Source: Lysinibacillus sphaericus (GTDB taxonomy: Bacteria > Bacillota > Bacilli > Bacillales_A > Planococcaceae). From it: a stretch of DNA of 64,000 nt. The DNA is taken from contig NZ_CP015224.1 in assembly GCF_001629735.1 (NCBI RefSeq), forward strand, positions 558,001 through 622,000, in the 5' to 3' direction. A program made the position numbers and the translations under genes. Shown here one piece after another: positions 4,590 to 14,005 of this stretch (position 1 is the stretch's first letter; each line of letters opens with the position of its first letter). The notes below the pieces were generated by a model. That model saw only the letters and a program-made list of their open reading frames with translations, searched no databases and had not been told where the DNA came from.

Positions 4590-6083
4590 ATGTATAATTT
4601 TTTAGATCGTTTCACTTTACAAAAGGTGCAACTGTTAGATCATATCCATAATGAAAAACGATTCTTTTCTAGTCAGGAGTTAGCTAAAAAAATGGATTTA
4701 TCTGAAAGAACCATCTTAAAAATAGTGACAGAACTCTCAAGTGATTTAGAAAAATTTGATGAAGCTATTTTTTTAAACGAACTGAAACAAAAGCAATTTA
4801 AATTGGATTATAAAGATTATTTTTCGATTAAAACAATCGAAAGATTTTACCTGCAAAATTCGTTAGCATATAAAATTTTCAATGATATTTTTTATAATAA
4901 ATTAGTCGATTTTAATATGTTTATTATAGAAAATTTTACAAGTCAAGCTTCTATATATCGTCAAATAAATAAAATTAAACCTTTATTAAATGAATTTCAA
5001 TTAAAATATACGTCTCAAGATTTCATTACACTTGAAGGATCTGAAAAACAATTTCGTTACTTTTACTATTTGTTCTATTGGAATTCATGTTGGGGAGAAA
5101 CTTGGCCTTTTTTAGGAATATCTAGAGAGGAAATAGTAGAAATTATTAAGGACTATAATCGAGAATTTCAAATTTCCGTATTATACTTGCTAGCGATTTG
5201 CTTAATACGGGCTAAAATGGGTTTTGTCATAGAAGATGACGTGGCATATACAAGATATACAGAACATCATTATCAATTTGAAAAATTTTCACAAACATTT
5301 AGTGTTTTATTTAAAAAATTCACAAACCTGAATGATGAAGCAATAGAGAAAGAGATAAAGTTTTCATTTTCATTTCTAGAGTCTCAGCATCGTTATGAGA
5401 AAAGTGAAAGTTCCATAAGTTTAATGATGAATTTTGGTCAATACCATAATCAAGAATTATTTGTACAAGCTACTTTGTATTGGATGGAGAAATTTAGGAA
5501 GTTCTTTTCAATTACTTTAGATATAGAGGAATATGGAGTACTGTTTGTAAACTTACTGAACCTTCATTATCATACATTGAATTTTTCTGGTCCTGCATTT
5601 TTATTTAAAGAAGACCTTTATAAAAAGAGATTTGATTGTCATGCTACTATACAAATTGAAATTATGAATCAATTTTACGACTATCTTTTAGAGAATGAAG
5701 AATTTTATAAGGTTTTTGAACGAAGAGAGCTTTTAATTGGTAGATATCATAGATTACTAAAGCAATCAATCGATGTTCTTAAAAGAAGCACCATAAAAAT
5801 AAAAATATACTCCTTGATTCATGATGTTCATTATTTATTCGATAAGGTCAAACGCGTCTTTTCGCATGTTGATTATTGTACAAAAGATGAAGAAGCCGAA
5901 TTGATCATTACTGATCGCCTATACTTAAATATTGCTAAAGACAAAGAAGATATTTTTGTATGGGATTCTATACCTGGGAGAGAGGATTTTTTCAGGCTAG
6001 GTAAAAGACTTCAAAAGATTTACTTTACTAAAGAACAACAGCCAGACCAATTACTTTTAAAAACATTATTAAGTCAAGTATAA
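4590..6083 (+). CDS. Mga/AtxA-like transcriptional regulator
   Basis: A 497-residue regulator that I place in the Mga/AtxA family. It has an N-terminal winged helix-turn-helix (about 1-60, FSSQELAKKMDLSERTILKIV), then a second HTH-like region and PRD-like helical domains, and an EIIB-like C-terminus (about 425-480). I start it at the ATG at 4590 because GAGGTGA lies just upstream; an in-frame TTG at 4554 would add 12 residues but has a poor site. It is monocistronic and very AT-rich. Its targets are unknown. If PRD-like histidines are phosphorylated, PTS sugar status could affect it, but that is inference. Confidence 0.72.
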   Translation: MYNFLDRFTLQKVQLLDHIHNEKRFFSSQELAKKMDLSERTILKIVTELSSDLEKFDEAIFLNELKQKQFKLDYKDYFSIKTIERFYLQNSLAYKIFNDIFYNKLVDFNMFIIENFTSQASIYRQINKIKPLLNEFQLKYTSQDFITLEGSEKQFRYFYYLFYWNSCWGETWPFLGISREEIVEIIKDYNREFQISVLYLLAICLIRAKMGFVIEDDVAYTRYTEHHYQFEKFSQTFSVLFKKFTNLNDEAIEKEIKFSFSFLESQHRYEKSESSISLMMNFGQYHNQELFVQATLYWMEKFRKFFSITLDIEEYGVLFVNLLNLHYHTLNFSGPAFLFKEDLYKKRFDCHATIQIEIMNQFYDYLLENEEFYKVFERRELLIGRYHRLLKQSIDVLKRSTIKIKIYSLIHDVHYLFDKVKRVFSHVDYCTKDEEAELIITDRLYLNIAKDKEDIFVWDSIPGREDFFRLGKRLQKIYFTKEQQPDQLLLKTLLSQV

Positions 6084-6443
6084 AGTGTGGGGATTTCATT
6101 GATTTTGAGACAAGAAAACTGAAACAAGAATTATTTGATTATTTTGAATACTATTCTTAAAAATAGTAGAAAAACATAATGGTTATACATCTGACTGCTT
6201 CATTTTTATGAGTGCATACCATCTTGCTTTAGACAAAGAATCATCATTGTACTACCTTTAACCATTTTCAAATGAAGGGGTTAAAATACATAGTCTTTTT
6301 GGTTACCTTTCTGTATAAAGTAGTTTGGGTACTTGGGAAACGAACCGGTGATAAAGTAAGACCAAACGTTTTTGTTATTAAGTGAATAACCGTTAATTCA
6401 TACAAATTTTCGTTTGCTATATTTCCAATCGAAGGGGGTAATT
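6084..6443. other. Intergenic region, possibly with a decayed reading frame
   Basis: About 360 bases between the Mga-like gene and the chemoreceptor. Short protein-like stretches appear on the plus strand around 6100-6160 and 6200-6330 but are broken by several stops, so a gene relic is possible. I looked for a sigma-D promoter before the chemoreceptor and found none. Confidence 0.35.
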
Positions 6444-8156
6444 ATGATGTTACGCAATCTTTCTACAATGAAAAAATTATTAGTTTTAATGTTAATATCC
6501 ATTTTTACAGTTGGTATTATTCAAGTCGTTGGATACAATACGATGAAATCTTTAAAAAATAATATAGAGGATATATTTAAGGACCGCTTAGAACCAGGTA
6601 TAGTTTTGACTGATTATAGGCTAAATAACCGTATTATTTTAACATACATGTATCGTTCCTTCCATTACACTGATGAAAAAACGATTAATGAAATTCATGC
6701 TGGGGTAAAGAAGGCTTTTGAAGAAAATGAAATGAATCTTCAATTACTTAATGACACCAGCTTAAAGTCAGATGAAGCAGAAATAATAAATGAACTGATT
6801 GATGAATATCCAAGTTTTAAAGAAACTATGGAAAAAGTATTCGAATTAAGTCTTGCCAATAAGAATGAGGAAGCATTAAATCTCTATTATTCTATTGCTG
6901 AGCCTGAGTATAATAGGATTTTATCAAAAGGTCGAGAGTTAACACAATTAAATAGAGACTATGCAAGCTCTTTGTATAAGGAAAGTGTAGAAGAAGTAAA
7001 TAAAAATACTAGGTATACATTGATCATTTCAACGGTATTAAGCATACTGTATGTTGTGTTCGGTTTTATTGGTGTCCGTACATATATAACAGCTCCAATA
7101 GATAAAATAAAAACTGCTGTCCAACGGGCAGAAGCGGGAGAATTAAATTTTAGTGTAGACTATGATTCTAAGGATGAAATTGGCGTATTATCTGCATCAC
7201 TTAATCGTATGATTACTAAATTAAGAGATTTAATAGGTCAGGTGAAGCAATCGTCTGAACATATGGCAGCGTTTTCTAATGAACTCACGGCAAGTACGGA
7301 ACAAACAAGTAAAGCCAGTGAGCATATTGCAACTGTTACGTTAGATATTGCAAGTGGAACAGAGCATCAAGTTCGAACACTAATAGAAACAGAAGATATT
7401 GTTACGCAAATGGCCCAAGATGTCCAAACAATCGAAAGTAATTCAACTAGCGTATCAGAGGCAGCTATTCATGCAGAACAAATTTCGGTGGATGGAAATG
7501 AAATTATTAAAAACGCTGTTCAGCAAATGAACAAAATCCAAACGTCTATTGATAGTCTAAATAATGTGATTTTTGGTTTAGGAGATCGCTCATCAGAGAT
7601 TGGGCAAATTGTAGAAGTTATTACAAGTATTGCTGAACAGACGAATTTATTAGCATTAAATGCAGCTATAGAAGCGGCAAGAGCAGGGGAAAATGGTAAA
7701 GGATTTGCTGTGGTTTCAGAAGAAGTTCGAAAATTAGCTGAAGAATCCTCTTTGTCTGCACGGAGAATTTCTGTATTAATTGATGGGATTCAAACGGAAA
7801 CGAATAGAGCGGTAGATTCAATGCAATTCACAACAAATGAAGTGGTTATAGGTATAAACTGTGTAAACACGGCAGGAGAATCCTTTAAGAAAATTCAACA
7901 TGCTACCAAGGAAGTTTCGGCTCAAGTTCAGGGGATTTCTACTTCAGTAGAGCATATGGCGATAGAAATGAGACATATGACTGATTCTATGAAGCAGATC
8001 AACGGAATCGCTCAAAGTTCTGCGGAGGGAACACAAAATATTTCGGCAGCTACTGAAGAACAGCTAGCTTCCATGGAAGAAATTACTGCATCTACTTTTA
8101 CACTTTCTAAAATGGCAGAAGAATTACAAAACAAAACAAATACGTTTAAAGTTTGA
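6444..8156 (+). CDS. Methyl-accepting chemotaxis protein
   Basis: A 570-residue membrane chemoreceptor that would signal to CheA/CheW. Order: TM helix 1 (about 10-30), an extracytoplasmic four-helix-bundle type sensor (about 31-188), TM helix 2 (about 190-212), HAMP (about 213-268) and a cytoplasmic signalling coiled coil whose conserved tip is at about 393-440 ([19 protein letters not shown]). The start is ATG 6444 (or 6447) behind GAAGGGGG; an in-frame TTG 30 bases upstream has no site. It stands alone and ends at a strong terminator. The ligand is unknown. Confidence 0.95.
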
Positions 8157-8345
8157 CGTGGCAGATTTTTTAAGAAGTACATAAGAGGAATTGAAGTTAT
8201 TCTACAATTATTTCAGTTAAAGGATAATCGAAGTTCTTAGGCAAGGATAAAAGGATTTGATAAACAGCTAAGTAAAAAGATACGCTTGATGTTACACTTA
8301 CTCCCTATAACCAGCCAGGTACTCTAGACATTTGCACAAATGAAT

Positions 8346-8385
8346 AACCAGAAGCTCCTATTATAGGTGAGCTTCTGGTTTTTTT
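8346..8385 (+). terminator. Rho-independent terminator
   Basis: A 12-bp perfect stem (AACCAGAAGCTC / GAGCTTCTGGTT) is followed directly by seven T. It lies about 190 bases after the chemoreceptor gene. Confidence 0.85.
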
Positions 8386-8632
8386 GTGTGAAATTATAGG
8401 AGTTAGATAGATTCCTTAGACGTCATCAATCTGGGCTATTCATAAGTAGGTGCTAGCCTGATGTCAATGCCTTTTCTATCGCTTAATAACATAGCTGGGA
8501 TAACCTAATTTCGTTACTCCCTTCATTCTTTTTTGCTGAACGGTCAAATTCAGATTCTCAAGGACATGTTGCAATAGTTTTAGAAGGTATAGCATATATT
8601 GAACTTTAATTCTCAAAATAGGAGTGGGGCAA

Positions 8633-9427
8633 GTGAACGATATCGAGCTATTGTTAAAAAAATTAAAGTACTTTGATAAAAAATTTAAGTTCATGATCCA
8701 GCAAAACAAAGATCATCTTCTAATTAATTATGATGAGCTATGTGAATTAATGGATGATTATTCTTCTTTTATAATCAATCGTGATAATGAAAAACAATGG
8801 AAACATATCAAACAATCGATAGAGATACTATCATTAATCGACAATTTAAGAAATAATTCTGCTGTTTGTGTCCAAATCCTAGAGAAACATTGGGCGGTAT
8901 TACTAAGTCATGAAGAGAAAGAGATGACCGATTACTTTCGTAATATAGGAGCTTGTATTTGCAAGGAATTTGGAGGTTTTCAAGTTACCAGTCAATCGAA
9001 GGTACTTTTGATAGGTTCTGGGTCTTTTCCCATAACATTATTAATGGTTGCAGAACAAACAGGAGCAGACGTTTTTGGAATAGATATTGATGATGAGGCG
9101 ATTCAGCTGAGCAAACATCTAGTAAATAAATTAGGAAGTCATTTATCCATTCAAATTGATAAGAAGACATTAGAGGAGCTAACAGTTATGCAGCAAATTA
9201 GTCATGTTATATTTAGTTCCACCGTAAGTAATAAATATGACATTTTAGACCAATTATATGATGTGACAAATAAAGATGTGCTGATTGCTATGCGTTATGG
9301 AAATGGACTAAAGTCTCTTTTTAACTACCCTAGGCAAAATGTAGACGAAAATAAATGGCATATAATAGAAGAAGTTATGCAACCTCAACATGTCTTTGAT
9401 GTTGTTTTATATCAAAAGGTACAATGA
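8633..9427 (+). CDS. cntL: Nicotianamine synthase-like aminobutanoyltransferase (CntL-like, opine metallophore synthesis)
   Basis: Likely transfers an aminobutyrate unit from S-adenosylmethionine onto an amino acid (D-His in staphylopine, L-His in pseudopaline). The protein is 264 residues; S. aureus CntL is about 271. A helical N-terminal half (about 1-118) precedes a Rossmann-like SAM domain with KVLLIGSGSFPIT at about 122 and GIDIDDEAI after strand 2. I start at GTG 8633 because AGGAG lies eight bases upstream; a GTG at 8624 sits inside that site. The next gene encodes a clear CntM-like dehydrogenase, which strengthens the call. No CntK-type histidine racemase is beside it, so the amino acid used is open. 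No Fur or Zur site was seen just upstream. Confidence 0.85.
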   Translation: MNDIELLLKKLKYFDKKFKFMIQQNKDHLLINYDELCELMDDYSSFIINRDNEKQWKHIKQSIEILSLIDNLRNNSAVCVQILEKHWAVLLSHEEKEMTDYFRNIGACICKEFGGFQVTSQSKVLLIGSGSFPITLLMVAEQTGADVFGIDIDDEAIQLSKHLVNKLGSHLSIQIDKKTLEELTVMQQISHVIFSSTVSNKYDILDQLYDVTNKDVLIAMRYGNGLKSLFNYPRQNVDENKWHIIEEVMQPQHVFDVVLYQKVQ

Positions 9428-9450
9428 ATTTAATAGGTGAGGAGAAAGCT

Positions 9451-10788
9451 ATGACTTATTTTAATCATGTATTACTGTTAGGAACAGGGCCTACAGTCAT
9501 TCAATTAGCTGTGAATTTCAAAAATTTTTTCAAGAGTAAAATTGCTATTGCAGGTCGAGAATCTGTACGTTCCAATATTTTCTTTGAAGCAGTTGTTCAG
9601 CATCAGCTTGTACTTAAGGTGTCTGTACAAAATACACAACATCAGGCTGTTTCAGGAGTATGTAAGATTGATGCATGTTTTAAGGGGTATCATAAAATAT
9701 CTGGAAAGTGGGATACTGTTGTCCTTTGTGTGACGACAGATTCTTATCTAGCTGTATTAGCACAAATTGATACGAAAGTATTGAAGGAGGTTAGTAGCTA
9801 TATATTAATCTCACCTACATTTGGTTCTAGTCTTTTAATGGCTAATTTTCTAAAGAATCTTTGCCCTCATGCAGAGATCATTAGTTTTTCCACATATTAT
9901 GGAGATACTAGATGGATAGGTGGAATTCCATCAAATGAAGTTTTGACAACAGGAGTGAAGAATACAATTTATATTGGCTCAACCTACTCAACGTCTTCTA
10001 GACTAGTTAGAATTACTGAATTATTTAAGGATTTGGGAATTCATTTGAAAAAATTAGCTTGTCCCCTTGAGGCAGAAACAAGGAATATTTCTTTGTACGT
10101 CCATCCTCCCTTATTTATGAATGATTTTGCATTAAAAGCAGTATTTGAGGAGGATAACGTAACAAAATATGTGTATAAGCTTTATCCTGAGGGGCCTATT
10201 ACTTATACTATGATTAGGCATTTACTAACCTATTGGGGAGAAATGATGAAAATCACAAACCACTTCAATATTCAACCTCTCAATTTATTAAAGTTTATGG
10301 TAGATGATAATTATCCATTGCAGCCAGCAAGTATAAATAGACAGGAAATCGAGAATTTTAATAAACTTGAATCTATACATCAAGAATATTTGCTCTATAT
10401 TCGTTATGCTTCTTTATTAATTGATCCATTTTCTATACCAAACAAAGAAGGAAAATACTTTGATTTTTCGGCAATCCCTTTTAAAGGAATGTATAAAAAT
10501 CTTGATGGAGAATGGGATATTCCTAGAATGCCAAAAGAGGACTATTTTCGTATGAAAATCATACAAGGGATTGCGAGTGCCCTGAAATTGGAAAGCCCAA
10601 CGCTTGATCATTTTGTCCAAACCTACGAAAAAAAACTACAGCAAGTTGTGGCTACATCTAGGAATAAAATATTTTCTGATGCCTTCCAAATAAAATCCTA
10701 TTCACAAGAAATCGAGATGATTTGTAAGGATTTAATTTTAAGTGAAAAACAAAAGACAGGGAAGAAAATATGTAACAGGATTAATTAG
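9451..10788 (+). CDS. cntM: Staphylopine-type opine dehydrogenase (CntM-like)
   Basis: Would reductively condense the CntL product with a 2-oxo acid (pyruvate or 2-oxoglutarate in known relatives) using NAD(P)H, giving an opine metallophore. The 445 residues start with a Rossmann motif (LLLGTGPTVIQLA). Strings typical of CntM follow: LISPTFGS, ISFSTYYGDTRW, LTTGVK, AETRNISLYVHPPLFMNDF, YPEGPIT, YLLYIRYASLLIDPFS, YFDFSAIPFK. ATG 9451 follows GGTGAGGAG at six bases; an ATG at 9424 overlaps the cntL stop but has no site. The two genes are almost contiguous. No Cnt-type export or ABC import genes are nearby. Confidence 0.93.
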   Translation: MTYFNHVLLLGTGPTVIQLAVNFKNFFKSKIAIAGRESVRSNIFFEAVVQHQLVLKVSVQNTQHQAVSGVCKIDACFKGYHKISGKWDTVVLCVTTDSYLAVLAQIDTKVLKEVSSYILISPTFGSSLLMANFLKNLCPHAEIISFSTYYGDTRWIGGIPSNEVLTTGVKNTIYIGSTYSTSSRLVRITELFKDLGIHLKKLACPLEAETRNISLYVHPPLFMNDFALKAVFEEDNVTKYVYKLYPEGPITYTMIRHLLTYWGEMMKITNHFNIQPLNLLKFMVDDNYPLQPASINRQEIENFNKLESIHQEYLLYIRYASLLIDPFSIPNKEGKYFDFSAIPFKGMYKNLDGEWDIPRMPKEDYFRMKIIQGIASALKLESPTLDHFVQTYEKKLQQVVATSRNKIFSDAFQIKSYSQEIEMICKDLILSEKQKTGKKICNRIN

Positions 10789-10903
10789 TTATTAAGTTTT
10801 CAATCAGTCGTATCATTAAGCTGGCTTTAGCGGTCGTATGAAAACTAAGAATTAGCGGACTCTTCAAAAGTCTGAAGTTATTGCTAAATAAATGCGTAGT
10901 GCA

Positions 10904-10936
10904 AGCCACCAATTAGTAGATGGGTGGTTCTATTTT
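10904..10936 (+). terminator. Weak hairpin terminator after cntM-like gene
   Basis: A 7-bp stem (AGCCACC with GGTGGTT, one G-T pair) is followed by a T-rich run. It may end the cntLM transcript. Confidence 0.5.
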
Positions 10937-10941
10937 AAATT

Positions 10942-10960
10942 GACAATGATAATCATTATC
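10942..10960 (+). promoter_or_regulatory. Fur box
   Basis: GACAATGATAATCATTATC differs at one base from the classical 19-base Fur consensus. TTGACA at 10940-10945 overlaps it as a possible -35. Iron-loaded Fur would block transcription toward the AraC/lipoprotein/cupin genes. Confidence 0.88.
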
Positions 10961-10963
10961 GAT

Positions 10964-11001
10964 AAGGTGGAGATAGACGAGCATCGTCATCTCCACCTTT
11001 T
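10964..11001 (+). terminator. Strong hairpin directly downstream of the Fur box
   Basis: An 11-bp perfect stem (AAGGTGGAGAT / ATCTCCACCTT) with an inner 4-bp stem (ACGA/TCGT) is followed by TTTT. It starts four bases after the Fur box and about 205 bases before the next gene. It could be a terminator or leader attenuator, or the body of a very short iron-regulated RNA. Confidence 0.6.
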
Positions 11002-11208
11002 CGCATGTTAGGCTAAATACGTTTGAATAATATTGCAGAATGGACCTTCTGTAAAAAGATAGAGGAACAGACCTAAAATGTCTGTGTCTTTTAGCTACAT
11101 CAGTAGCTTATTGAAGGGTATACGCTGTTTATGGTCAAAAGTTATTCAAGATGTACAGCTAGAATTTTACGATTACTGGTAAACAATTTTTGAAATGAGG
11201 TATGCAAT

Positions 11209-12036
11209 TTGAACATCGATGTAAATCAGTTAGCAGAATATTTAGCACATATTCCATTTCAAGTAGAAGGAATATATCGATATGCTAGTAATTCAGGTGT
11301 GCCATACGCTGACTATACAGATGCTTTTCCTGGATTTGTTTTTCCACTTAATGGAAAAATACAATTTCATTTCAATGGCACACCTTATATCTTTTCTCCA
11401 GGAAAAATTGTGCATGGCGGTGCAAAAATGAAACTGGATCAAAAGAATTTTGATAATACGAATTGGGAATATATCCTTGTTCTCTATCGCATATGTAACT
11501 CAGAACCGCAGGAGGCAGGCTTTTCTCATCAACATTTTGAATTATCAACTGGACAATCTCCTCGTCTTATCGAATTAGTTATGCGTCTTTGGCATGTGTA
11601 TAATCAGCGCGGAGGCATTTCTAGGTTTCAGACTGAAATGCTATTTCGTGATGTATTGAATGAGGCTTTATTATGTGTGGTTAATCGGCAAAATAGCTGT
11701 CAATCACATATTTTATTTGAGCAGGTATCTTCCTATATTCATGAACACTATTATCAAAGCCTTACAATTCCCTTGCTTGCAGAACAATATAACGTGAATC
11801 GAAATCGGCTATCTTATGTATTTAGAAAACATGCAGGGATGGGACCAGCAGAATATTTATTGAAATACCGTATAAACATGGCACAAGAAATGCTCTTTAA
11901 AAGTGATGCTCCTGTACAACAAATTGCGCAGGCTGTCGGAATGGATGACCCCTTTTATTTTAGTAGAGTGTTTAAGAAACAATTTGGTATACCTCCTAAA
12001 GAGTTTCGTGAGAAGTTCATTAATAATCCATGCTAG
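11209..12036 (+). CDS. AraC-family transcriptional regulator
   Basis: A 275-residue regulator with a cupin-like ligand-binding N-terminus (about 20-100, with FVFPLNGKIQFHFNG) and two C-terminal AraC helix-turn-helices (about 180-270, ending VGMDDPFYFSRVFKKQFGIPPKEF). The start is TTG at 11209 with GAGG eight bases upstream. It lies downstream of the Fur box and directly before a siderophore-type binding lipoprotein. Regulators of this kind, such as B. subtilis Btr, activate iron-siderophore uptake genes when bound to their ligand. That role here is inferred from context. Confidence 0.88.
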   Translation: MNIDVNQLAEYLAHIPFQVEGIYRYASNSGVPYADYTDAFPGFVFPLNGKIQFHFNGTPYIFSPGKIVHGGAKMKLDQKNFDNTNWEYILVLYRICNSEPQEAGFSHQHFELSTGQSPRLIELVMRLWHVYNQRGGISRFQTEMLFRDVLNEALLCVVNRQNSCQSHILFEQVSSYIHEHYYQSLTIPLLAEQYNVNRNRLSYVFRKHAGMGPAEYLLKYRINMAQEMLFKSDAPVQQIAQAVGMDDPFYFSRVFKKQFGIPPKEFREKFINNPC

Positions 12037-12119
12037 TTTCAACAAGCATCCATTCAAATCTATCAATGCCTTTACTATACTAATGGCATATCAAAGATCA
12101 TATGTTGGAGGAATTTAGG

Positions 12120-13100
12120 ATGCAAAAGATGAAAGGATTGTGTTTCTCAATACTTTTATTAGCTGGAATACTAGGAGGCTGTAATGAAACACCAACTGAA
12201 AATAAAGGAATATCTACAAAAGAGACATCTACTTCAGCGATTCAGCAGGATACTACTGATTGGCCAAGAACCATTAAGGATGCCTTAGGTAAAGAAATAG
12301 TTATCGAGAAGAAACCTGAAAAAATAGCGTCGCTTTGGTATTTTTACCCAGAAATATTAGTTGCACTGGGTGAGCCGCCTACAGCTTCTACAGATAAAGA
12401 GTATCTATCTTCTTTAGCCTATTTAAATGGAAAACTAGATTCAACCGAAGAATTAGGAGATAAATTGTCTCCTAGTATTGAAAAAACTCTATCGACCGAG
12501 CCTGATTTTATTTTAGCAACAGAACATCATGAAAAACTGTATGAATCACTTGAAAAAATAGCGCCAGTCATTACTTTAAAATACCAGGATATTTATGAAG
12601 ATTGGCAATATGGTCTCCGTACAGTAGCCGAGATTATTGGCAAAGAGGACGAAGCTGAAAAAGTAATTGAAAAAATGATGCAAGCAATTACAACTGGGCG
12701 TGAAGATTTAAAATCGATTGAAGGAGAGTCAGTAGCACTTATAGTGTCATGGGATGGAAAAACTTTTAATGTTTTGGGTGAAGATAACCCTGTTTATACA
12801 CTTGCGTTTGATAAAGAAAAGGGGTTGGGACTTACACCAGATATCACATTTAATGGTAAGAGCAATCAGTTTTCTGCGTTCGAAGGAATTTCAACTATTC
12901 AAGCAGACCATATTTTCCTTATAGGGGATATAACCAAAAAAGAAACATTACTGAGTGAGTTAAATGAAAATAATGTTTGGAATAATATGAACGCGGTAAA
13001 GAAAGGAAATATTCATTTGATGGATACATCTGCTATTACTGGTGGCCCACTAGCTATGGAATACGCTTTGCAAAATATAACAAAAGCTCTAAAAAATTAA
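12120..13100 (+). CDS. Iron-siderophore (FecB/FhuD-type) ABC transporter binding lipoprotein
   Basis: A 326-residue lipoprotein that would capture a ferric chelate for an ABC importer. A signal peptide ends in a lipobox (ILGGC), then a Thr/Ser-rich linker, then a cluster A-1 binding fold starting at about 45 (WPRTIKDALGKEIVIEKKPEKIASL). ATG 12120 is preferred because GGAGG lies eight bases upstream; an ATG at 12102 lies before that site. No permease or ATPase gene follows, so it must share a transporter encoded elsewhere. Whether it binds the opine made by the cntLM-like pair is unknown; Cnt systems use a different type of binding protein. Confidence 0.88.
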   Translation: MQKMKGLCFSILLLAGILGGCNETPTENKGISTKETSTSAIQQDTTDWPRTIKDALGKEIVIEKKPEKIASLWYFYPEILVALGEPPTASTDKEYLSSLAYLNGKLDSTEELGDKLSPSIEKTLSTEPDFILATEHHEKLYESLEKIAPVITLKYQDIYEDWQYGLRTVAEIIGKEDEAEKVIEKMMQAITTGREDLKSIEGESVALIVSWDGKTFNVLGEDNPVYTLAFDKEKGLGLTPDITFNGKSNQFSAFEGISTIQADHIFLIGDITKKETLLSELNENNVWNNMNAVKKGNIHLMDTSAITGGPLAMEYALQNITKALKN

Positions 13101-13127
13101 GTAGAACAAATAAAGGGAGAGAAGTAT

Positions 13128-13457
13128 ATGTATTATCAAGCTATTAATCTGAATGAGAGTGCAGCTCAAATAAATGAACTATGGGCACCAAAAGTTATTG
13201 GTGAAATACACGATTTCCAATTCAAGCTGGTTAAGATTGATGGAGATTTTATATGGCATGAGCATCAAGGAGCGGATAAAGTATTTATTGTCCTCCAAGG
13301 AGAGCTATTTATCGCTTTTCGCGATGGCCAGGTGAAAATTTCACAAGGGGAGATGGTTATAATTCCAGGTGGCCCTGCGCATAAGCCTTTTGCCGAAAAA
13401 GAATGCCATATTATGCTAGTGGAGCCTAAAGGCATAGTAAATACTGATAGTAAATAA
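13128..13457 (+). CDS. Small cupin-domain protein
   Basis: A 109-residue single cupin. The metal-site motifs are visible: WHEHQGADKVFIVLQGE (motif 1) and PGGPAHKPFAEK (motif 2). It sits 27 bases after the lipoprotein gene with its own AGGGAGAG site, so it is probably cotranscribed, and a terminator follows. Cupins of this size bind a metal ion and a small ligand, but the reaction cannot be deduced. The iron-linked context is suggestive only. Confidence 0.8.
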   Translation: MYYQAINLNESAAQINELWAPKVIGEIHDFQFKLVKIDGDFIWHEHQGADKVFIVLQGELFIAFRDGQVKISQGEMVIIPGGPAHKPFAEKECHIMLVEPKGIVNTDSK

Positions 13458-13472
13458 AATAACAAAAATTCT

Positions 13473-13497
13473 AGAGCTGCATAGTCAGCTCTTTTTT
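13473..13497 (+). terminator. Rho-independent terminator
   Basis: AGAGCTG / CAGCTCT stem with a six-base loop and a T tail, 16 bases after the cupin gene. Confidence 0.82.
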
Positions 13498-13703
13498 ATT
13501 GAACGAACGAGGCAAGCTAGAGATGGAGATAAGTGTGTTAATAACAATATATCGACCTTCAGAAGAACTATTTTATAGGAGTAAAGTATCAAAAAAATAG
13601 AATGAATTTCGAGGAAAAAAATGTTGAAAAATACTTAAATTGTAATATACTTATTTGGTAGGGTCTCATACTATAGTATTTATAAATTTATTGGAGGTAT
13701 TTT

Positions 13704-13910
13704 ATGTCAGACAGAAGTTTCGTAGCAACATTATTACTTTGTTTCTTTTTAGGAAGTCTAGGTGTTCACCGTTTTTATGCTGGTAAAATCGGTACAGGAA
13801 TTTTAATGTTTTTAACATTAGGTGGATTGGGTATTTGGACAATTATTGATTTAATTATGATAATCGTTGGTAAATTTACTGATAAGGACGGCAACATTAT
13901 TAAATCGTAA
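13704..13910 (+). CDS. TM2-domain membrane protein
   Basis: A 68-residue protein with two membrane helices joined by a short turn. The family signature is clear: LLCFFLGSLGVHRFYAGKIGTGILMFLT then GGLGIWTIIDLI. ATG 13704 follows GGAGG. The function of bacterial TM2 proteins is not well defined. It is monocistronic and ends at a terminator. Confidence 0.9.
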   Translation: MSDRSFVATLLLCFFLGSLGVHRFYAGKIGTGILMFLTLGGLGIWTIIDLIMIIVGKFTDKDGNIIKS

Positions 13911-14005
13911 TAGAACATAATTAGTAAATTATTGAAATATAAAAACGATGGGCTTGTACATAGATTATTTTCAGCTTGTTGATTTTATTTATAGTAATGC
14001 GATAA

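Follow-up and report, generated by a model that had tools for sequence, protein, structure and literature searches.

A cntLM gene pair in Lysinibacillus sphaericus: probable remainder of a staphylopine-type operon with a predicted yersinopine-like product

Two adjacent genes in Lysinibacillus sphaericus resemble cntL and cntM of opine-metallophore synthesis and stand without their usual partners, which raises the questions of what such a pair makes and where it came from. The window analysed here is a stretch of 64,000 nt (contig NZ_CP015224.1, positions 558,001 to 622,000, forward strand), in which the pair is arranged as follows:

8620..8624, + strand: AGGAG, likely ribosome-binding site of cntL (sequence)
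8633..9427, + strand: cntL, nicotianamine-synthase (NAS)-like aminobutyrate transferase, 264 aa (profile and structure matches)
9424..10788, + strand: cntM, opine (staphylopine-type) dehydrogenase, 454 aa (profile and structure matches)

The two genes overlap by 4 bases. The mechanical ORF list puts the cntL start at GTG 8624, but the start at GTG 8633, as given in an earlier sequence-only reading, is preferred because AGGAG 8620-8624 sits 8 nt upstream of it. CntL matched PF03059 (4e-9), NF033601 (266 bits, under the equivalog cut-off of 350) and the S. aureus CntL structures (about 1e-61). CntM matched PF10100 (592 bits), NF033600 (511 bits, under the cut-off of 675) and staphylopine dehydrogenase structures (about 1e-113); both proteins thus score under the NCBI equivalog cut-offs. 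Residue E84 of CntL (counted from 8633), which we take to be the catalytic Glu, was invariant in 14/14 CntL aligned. By these matches CntL and CntM belong to opine-metallophore enzyme families, as the earlier reading had proposed, and the NAS-like gene lies directly upstream of the CntM-family dehydrogenase gene, the arrangement that marks opine-metallophore biosynthesis.

The same reading had reported the usual partners missing, and genome-wide searches bore this out for CntK, CntA and CntE. The host genome, which is complete and of the Lysinibacillus group, contains a single PF10100 match. A search of it with the G047 CntK protein gave no match; across 32 genus genomes the same query recovered its own gene in G047, besides a split copy (G038) and a fossil (G030). 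Whole (G047) or split (G038) cntK and true cntA co-occurred in the same 2 of these 32 genomes. No CntA orthologue was found in the host genome (best CntA-like protein 36-37% identical, compared with 67-78% among true CntA), nor a CntE orthologue (best CntE-like protein 23% identical, in a search run without a positive control), and no full cnt operon that would make the pair redundant turned up elsewhere in it. The DapF-family Pfam model PF01678, tried as a test for CntK, gave no match here and was rejected as uninformative, because a Lysinibacillus CntK likewise gets no Pfam match. No Zur box with ≤3 mismatches occurs in positions 1-26000 of the window, so there is none near cntL; elsewhere in the genome there are four Zur box-like sites with ≤1 mismatch. 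The locus therefore lacks the CntK upstream, CntA, CntE and Zur-box control of a classical staphylopine cnt operon. Within six ORFs of cntM there is no importer and exporter pair, nor is there a yersinopine-type EamA exporter with a FecCD importer beside cntLM. According to the parts of PMC7438024 that describe its map, importer and exporter genes lie near cntM in all clusters except that of the Vibrio orphan CntM2.

Two features in front of cntL bear on the origin of the pair:

8559..8609, + strand: degenerate 3′ terminus of the histidine racemase gene cntK, old stop TAA at 8607-8609 (aligned at nucleotide level to the L044 gene, which is intact)
8570..8610, + strand: two-block conserved element TGCAATAG - 14 nt - GCATATATTGAACTTTAAT, candidate promoter (column conservation)

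In GCATATATTGAACTTTAA the old cntK frame can still be read as AYIEL-stop. This remnant is too short for tblastn, which detects a cntK fossil only in L043 of G030. These alignments mark the pair as the remainder of a cntKLM-ABCDF-E operon. It shares orthologous CntL/CntM, gene order, a cntK remnant in front and CntM D150 with the staphylopine/bacillopaline cnt operon (cntKLMABCDFE; S. aureus, Paenibacillus), whereas no CntK, CntA or CntE orthologue was found in the host, no Zur box lies near the pair, and Met137 and Ala261 of CntL are replaced. The ancestor would have had a Zur box and cntK as well as genes for import (ABCDF) and export (CntE), all lost in the host lineage. An independent cntK loss in L046 was favoured (87/78), and one single loss in the Lysinibacillus group was not rejected (AU p 0.21).

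The element overlapping the remnant is well conserved. Among 12 cntK-less loci (omitting L056, a copy of L055), 7/8 columns of TGCAATAG and 16/19 of GCATATATTGAACTTTAAT were invariant, compared with 3/14 in the spacer and 5/37 cntL fourfold sites. In a genome search with a tolerance of ≤3 mismatches, the only exact match was the one at cntL; two further sites had 2 mismatches and five had 3, and the control gave one match. A sigma-E-like promoter upstream of cntL was rejected, since its motif occurs at chance in the window (10 found, 7.6 expected), and therefore only the conservation of the element is retained. No RNA family was found in 8100-14000 up to E 0.1.

Substrate preference was read from individual residues. 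In CntM, the Arg at 9556-9558 corresponds to S. aureus R33 and the Asp at 9904-9906 to S. aureus D150. Both occur in 17/19 aligned CntM, and the other two (L057, L058) pair R33 with A150; the broken L042 and L059 were excluded from this alignment and from dN/dS. The residues associated with NADPH and with pyruvate are both retained in host CntM, the residue-150 rule for the oxo acid being that of PMC7438024. The different oxo acid suggested earlier is not supported, because the pyruvate-associated residue is kept; no racemase together with D150 is the yersinopine-type combination.

A different amino acid, also suggested earlier, fared better, by inference, because the racemase is absent and a CntL residue change is common to 28 loci. 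Host CntL has Ile at 137, directly after GSGxxP (codon 9032-9034), and Val at 261 (codon 9404-9406), where racemase-linked CntL have Ala (both numbered from GTG 8624). Residue 137 was Met in 44/44 loci with a neighbouring cntK (split in L042) and non-Met in 28/28 loci with no cntK or only a fossil (L043), with cntK absence outside the genus judged within stretches of about 6-20 kb. L122 and L125, first set apart as 'K?', were later found to have cntK. The archaeal NAS 3fpe has Leu at this position. The comparison leaves out P. aeruginosa and Y. pestis CntL, the 44 loci include many close kin, and the 28 hold fewer distinct CntL because L147 is alike to L132 and L055 to L056. The correlation rests on few independent events, since one single cntK loss in the Lysinibacillus group was not rejected and the other cntK-less type is possibly ancestral. 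S. aureus CntL is described as using D-His and not L-His (in part of PMC9598555), and P. aeruginosa CntL as reacting with L-His only (in part of PMC5719457). The change common to the compared racemase-less relatives suggests that CntL went over from D- to L-histidine, which would make CntL 137 a one-residue, testable candidate for D-/L-histidine use; the published rule uses cntK presence only. Among the literature matches listed and the passages covered, which do not extend to the text of Luo 2021 (FASEB J, CntL structure) and Laffont 2019 ('simple rules'), none names a D-/L-His residue in CntL.

We consider it reasonably probable that cntLM encodes a working two-enzyme opine-metallophore synthase left from a staphylopine-type operon, with an L-histidine-adapted CntL, a pyruvate-using CntM, a yersinopine-like product and a separate Fur-box cassette behind it. 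CntL would have adapted to L-histidine by a Met to Ile/Leu change in its SAM-loop motif, and would join the SAM-derived aminobutyrate to L-histidine to give the intermediate yNA. CntM would couple yNA to pyruvate with NADPH. With L-histidine, SAM and pyruvate as predicted substrates, the product would be of the yersinopine type, because CntL would take L-histidine and CntM pyruvate with NADPH. The predicted chemistry (no racemase, L-His, pyruvate through D150, two enzymes) resembles the yersinopine pathway of Y. pestis as outlined in part of PMC7438024. Unlike that pathway, the host is Gram-positive and has no adjacent FecCD importer or EamA exporter, and its product is predicted; the one sequence compared, a Y. 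pestis PDB chain, matched CntM at 215 bits. Pseudopaline (P. aeruginosa) and other racemase-less clusters (Bacillota L129-L135, L057, L058) also lack cntK beside cntL, and CntL 137 is non-Met in the nine Bacillota loci. However, the Bacillota clusters have EamA beside cntM (3 tested), whereas the host has no exporter, and 5/9 have A150 (where the pattern read it), compared with D150 here. The Vibrio orphan CntM2, as described in part of Morey and Kehl-Fie 2020, is likewise a CntM without nearby transporters, but it lacks CntL, which the host has, and lies beside an acyltransferase gene. The literature retrieved holds nothing on this gene pair in Lysinibacillus; among the matches listed, PMC11237614 and PMC12067966 (in part) mention clusters for bacillopaline, found in two strains of Paenibacillus and in 'P. 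jepli'.

The sequence-only reading had placed an AraC regulator, a FecB-type lipoprotein and a cupin behind a Fur box, and all were recovered downstream of cntM:

10947..10961, + strand: Fur box TGATAATCATTATCG, 1 mismatch, within the segment ATTGACAATGATAATCATTATCGATAA, before the araC unit (box scan)
10964..10999, + strand: terminator-like hairpin between cntM and araC (MFE -23.7 kcal/mol, z -5.6)
11209..12036, + strand: AraC-family regulator (HTH_18 7e-23)
12102..13100, + strand: FecB-type substrate-binding lipoprotein (PF01497 3e-23)
13128..13457, + strand: small cupin (PF07883 6e-9)

The segment ATTGACAATGATAATCATTATCGATAA was present in 10/10 aligned loci, with one variable column (G for A in L045, L060). 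None of 200 shuffles folded as well as the hairpin, which was strong also in L045 and not in L091 (3 folded). The FecB gene, which comes without a permease, is two ORFs after cntM, yet in a separate unit. L060 was left out of the fecB dN/dS.

The alternatives differ in what they make of these neighbours and of the lost ones. That cntLM and araC-fecB-cupin form a single pathway, in which FecB imports the metal-loaded opine as first suggested, appears distinctly unlikely. The cassette does adjoin cntLM at two different sites (the host, L055 and L056; and L045), lies beside cntL alone in L088 and a cntM remnant in L060, and is about 5 kb off in L043. Moreover, a complete FecBCD set is found near L045 and L043, FecCD-type importers serve other racemase-less clusters (in part of PMC7438024), and 10/11 genus genomes with FecB (≥80%) also have a PF10100 match, compared with 17/32 overall (hypergeometric p 0.002, relatedness ignored). 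However, the hairpin and the cassette's own Fur box part the two units, the cassette is unlinked to cntLM in G044, G054 and G047 and occurs without it in G040, and a FecB orthologue (≥80%) is absent from 7/17 genus genomes with a CntM match. Among solved structures FecB comes nearest to proteins that bind siderophores, such as ferrichrome and hydroxamates. It hardly resembles the Vibrio/Arsenophonus opine-cluster FecB (E 0.005 or worse), and to that of a Paenibacillus plasmid it is 23% identical at 2e-10. Uptake through FecB is not supported because of this separate Fur box, the unlinked or absent copies in relatives and the siderophore-type homology, by which the cassette is an independent Fur-box (iron) unit.

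The loss of the partners, Zur box and cntK, together with copies that are broken or partly lost in G029, G032, G038 and G048 (4 of the 22 family genomes scoring above the cut-off for PF10100), could mean that cntLM is a decaying relic, little or not expressed and on its way to loss. This is very unlikely: in 13 of these 22 genomes cntL and cntM stand side by side as open frames without cnt partners (G101 and G199, under the cut-off, were omitted from this neighbourhood count), the upstream element is conserved, and the reciprocal losses in G032 (cntL without cntM at L088, cntM with a broken cntL at L054) are such that each gene survives there in one good copy. Judged by dN/dS well under 1 (references the host locus, L048 and L044), both genes are under purifying selection, with values of 0.13-0.48, mostly <0.36, for cntL and 0.10-0.25 for cntM inside the Lysinibacillus-type set. 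CntL might instead still act on D-histidine that is made by an unrelated racemase or obtained externally, so that the product would be staphylopine itself. The pair does descend from a racemase-linked operon, host CntL is closer to racemase-linked L044 (61% identical) than to other cntK-less Bacillota L130, L133 and L135 (27-29%), and a PLP-dependent histidine racemase is described from a lactic acid bacterium (in part of PMC11602996). Yet no CntK was found, host CntL lacks the Met that all 44 racemase-linked CntL compared have, and position 261 has also changed in 13/14 cntK-less Lysinibacillus-type CntL (L046 keeps Ala), and we regard this as unlikely.

For the L-histidine-using synthase that we favour, transport would fall to unlinked general transporters, or none would be needed if the product acts intracellularly. 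Being without the exporter is described as harmful to S. aureus (in part of PMC9598555), which counts against an exporter-less pathway. A broader proposal, still doubtful, is that transporter-less cntLM is a portable pair whose yersinopine-like product would work intracellularly in the manner of nicotianamine in plants, buffering or loading metals, perhaps at a developmental stage such as sporulation, with a promoter drawn from the old cntK tail and the residue after GSGxxP as the D-/L-His switch. The literature searched held nothing joining metallophore, sporulation and mother cell. No mobile element was identified as carrier of cntLM, the shared block running from the cntK tail to the end of cntM. 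Intact cnt operons occur in the family members G047, G146 and G079. The genomes that keep the biosynthetic pair alone, in several places and under selection, raise the question of whether an opine metallophore can be useful without dedicated transport; among relatives the cntLM unit was found in about eight different neighbourhoods.

Profile and structure matches established that the window holds a real CntL/CntM-like enzyme pair. CntL matched PF03059 and scored 266 bits against the NCBI CntL model, below its equivalog cut-off, while S. aureus CntL structures matched it at ~1e-61. CntM scored 592 bits against PF10100 and 511 against the NCBI model, below that model's cut-off, and staphylopine dehydrogenase structures matched it at ~1e-113. 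The two genes overlap by 4 bases, and the cntL start at GTG 8633 agrees with an AGGAG at 8620-8624. The sequence-only reading had found the usual cnt partners missing, and this held genome-wide: in the one-contig 4.69 Mb genome (99.99% complete; the window is C1:558001-622000), we found no orthologue of the racemase CntK, of CntA or of the exporter CntE, the CntE search having no positive control. CntK of G047, a Lysinibacillus genome with an intact operon, had no match in this genome; among 32 genus genomes it matched itself, a copy split in two (G038) and a fossil (G030). The best match to G047 CntA was just 36-37% identical; matches of at least 78% occurred in G047 and G038 only, the rest being at most 41% among the matches listed. 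The best CntE-like protein was 23% identical. CntM is single copy in the whole genome. A DapF-family Pfam model was discarded as a CntK test; Pfam was also blank for a Lysinibacillus CntK.

PF10100 matches were present in 24 of 261 family genomes, 22 of them above the cut-off. Neighbourhoods were counted over ~20 kb around each of these 22, plus a second site in G032, leaving out the two below the cut-off (G101, G199). Only three carry an intact full cnt operon (G079, G146, G047). One, G038, has a rearranged, broken operon in which ~3 kb carrying a DDE transposase ORF interrupts cntK:

5068-8026 of locus L042 (G038): split cntK, with an insert carrying a 597-aa DDE-transposase ORF

In G038, cntM also has a stop, and genes belonging to the ABCDFE part precede cntK. 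Two genomes have a different cntK-less type (G112, G113), one has cntL and cntM at separate sites (G032), and in two the genes are broken or almost lost (G048, G029). The remaining 13 have open cntL and cntM with no cnt partners (the window's genome, G030, G033, G034, G035, G036, G044, G045, G046, G052, G054, G056 and G067, the last from another genus).

The cntK-less loci, except L046 (G045), retain a decayed cntK end directly 5′ of cntL, terminated by the old AYIEL-stop. This short remnant was seen in the window by nucleotide alignment and is invisible to tblastn, which detects a fossil solely in L043 (G030). A common block of ~2.2 kb, from the cntK tail to about the cntM end, is ~79-95% identical between the intact copies compared (72-77% for L046), and its flanks differ, falling into about eight neighbourhoods when grouped by reading of shared gene clusters. 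In G045, cntL and cntM stand alone at the site of G047's whole operon. The tree puts the cntK-less copies close to the G047 operon, with 12 in one clade (100/99); L046 is placed outside G047 (87/78), and a single cntK loss is still compatible (AU p 0.21). Since the G067 copy is nested within the 12-copy clade, lateral transfer is suggested. The cntLM pair is a real, new form of an already known pathway.

Pairwise dN/dS was computed against three references. Against the window's genome, values in the Lysinibacillus-type set were 0.13-0.28 for cntL and 0.14-0.23 for cntM; with L048 and L044 (which has an intact cntK) they were wider (cntL 0.18-0.48, cntM 0.10-0.25), the top cntL values coming at low divergence. 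G032 shows reciprocal loss, with cntL lacking cntM at L088 (G032:C21) and cntM beside a broken cntL at L054 (G032:C40).

We take CntM R33 to indicate NADPH use, and the window CntM carries R and D at the equivalents of positions 33 and 150. SaCntM prefers NADPH, according to PMC5719457. Morey and Kehl-Fie (2020; PMC7438024) link Asp at 150 to pyruvate and Ala to 2-oxoglutarate, and cntK presence to D-His and absence to L-His. A different oxo acid, as had been proposed, is therefore unsupported, since CntM keeps the pyruvate-linked D150. The proposed different amino acid gained support by inference from CntL. Directly after GSGxxP, CntL has Met in 44/44 loci with tblastn-detected cntK (including the split L042). 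All 28 others have Ile, Leu, Val or Thr there: 14 Lysinibacillus-type (L043 with its cntK fossil among them), nine other Bacillota, four gammaproteobacterial and one Paenibacillus plasmid copy almost identical to L132, where outside the genus "no cntK" means none in the fetched stretch. An EamA gene adjoins cntM in all three checked of the nine other Bacillota loci. Position 261 (counted from GTG 8624) divides the loci alike, the sole exception being L046, still Ala. Archaeal thermonicotianamine synthase has Leu at the GSGxxP-adjacent position. SaCntL accepts D-His and not L-His (PMC9598555), and PaCntL reacts with L-His only (PMC5719457). The natural reading is that the CntL change would reflect an altered histidine form, although the correlation covers few independent events; the predicted product is most likely a yersinopine-like opine.

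A Zur box lies 5′ of cntK in the three intact family operons (1-2 mismatches) and 5′ of cntL in G112 and G113 (2 mismatches). None was found near cntK of the broken G038 operon or near the window cntL; elsewhere in the window's genome there are four Zur sites with at most one mismatch, 2-mismatch sites being at background level. Upstream of cntL, 12 cntK-less loci share TGNAATAG, a constant-length 14-nt spacer and GCATATATTGAACTTTAAT, conserved far above fourfold sites of cntL. This element looks like a candidate promoter built from former coding sequence. One possibility is that a sporulation sigma factor reads it, but the sigma-type motif alone occurs at chance frequency.

The AraC, FecB and cupin genes and their Fur box (10947-10961) are present downstream of cntLM as described earlier; the suggested FecB-linked uptake route is unsupported, given the cassette's own Fur box, its unlinked cases, the siderophore-type FecB and a hairpin:

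10964-10999: strong terminator-like hairpin between cntM and the Fur cassette, just past the Fur box

The hairpin is also strong in L045 (G036), and the corresponding stretch of the unlinked L091 has no such fold. By eye, its arms show paired changes between the window and L045. The Fur-box segment is identical in 10/10 aligned araC-fecB-cupin loci, linked or unlinked, save one variable column. A FecB orthologue (at least 80%) occurs in 11/32 genus genomes, 10 of which also have a CntM match (17/32 overall). The cassette adjoins cntLM in the window, L055, L056 and L045, adjoins cntL in L088 and lies ~5 kb off in L043; it is unlinked in G044, G054 and G047, and G040 has it but no cntLM. FecB is nearest to FhuD, FeuA and similar proteins rather than to opine-cluster FecB. 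With moderate confidence, we regard the cassette as a neighbour of cntLM, not a partner. The uptake idea is still alive for G036 and G030, because a second, complete FecBCD set lies close by in both. At L060 (G029), the same site as L045, araC-fecB-cupin is retained, while of cntLM just a 3′ piece of cntM survives. A fused form of the split regulator and binder, a 639-aa AraC-substrate-binding-protein fusion (L090:3855-5774, minus strand) with a Fur-like box immediately upstream (5807), lies ~3 kb from G054's unlinked cassette.

No dedicated exporter for the cntLM product was found in these searches. In S. aureus, CntE loss is harmful, according to PMC9598555. The product may be handled by a general exporter, act intracellularly or be freed upon lysis. 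Plasmids of the insect symbiont Arsenophonus nasoniae (L144, four records) carry an opine cluster with no racemase in the stretch, comprising genes for a binding protein, permease, ATPase, CntL, CntM and a DMT transporter.
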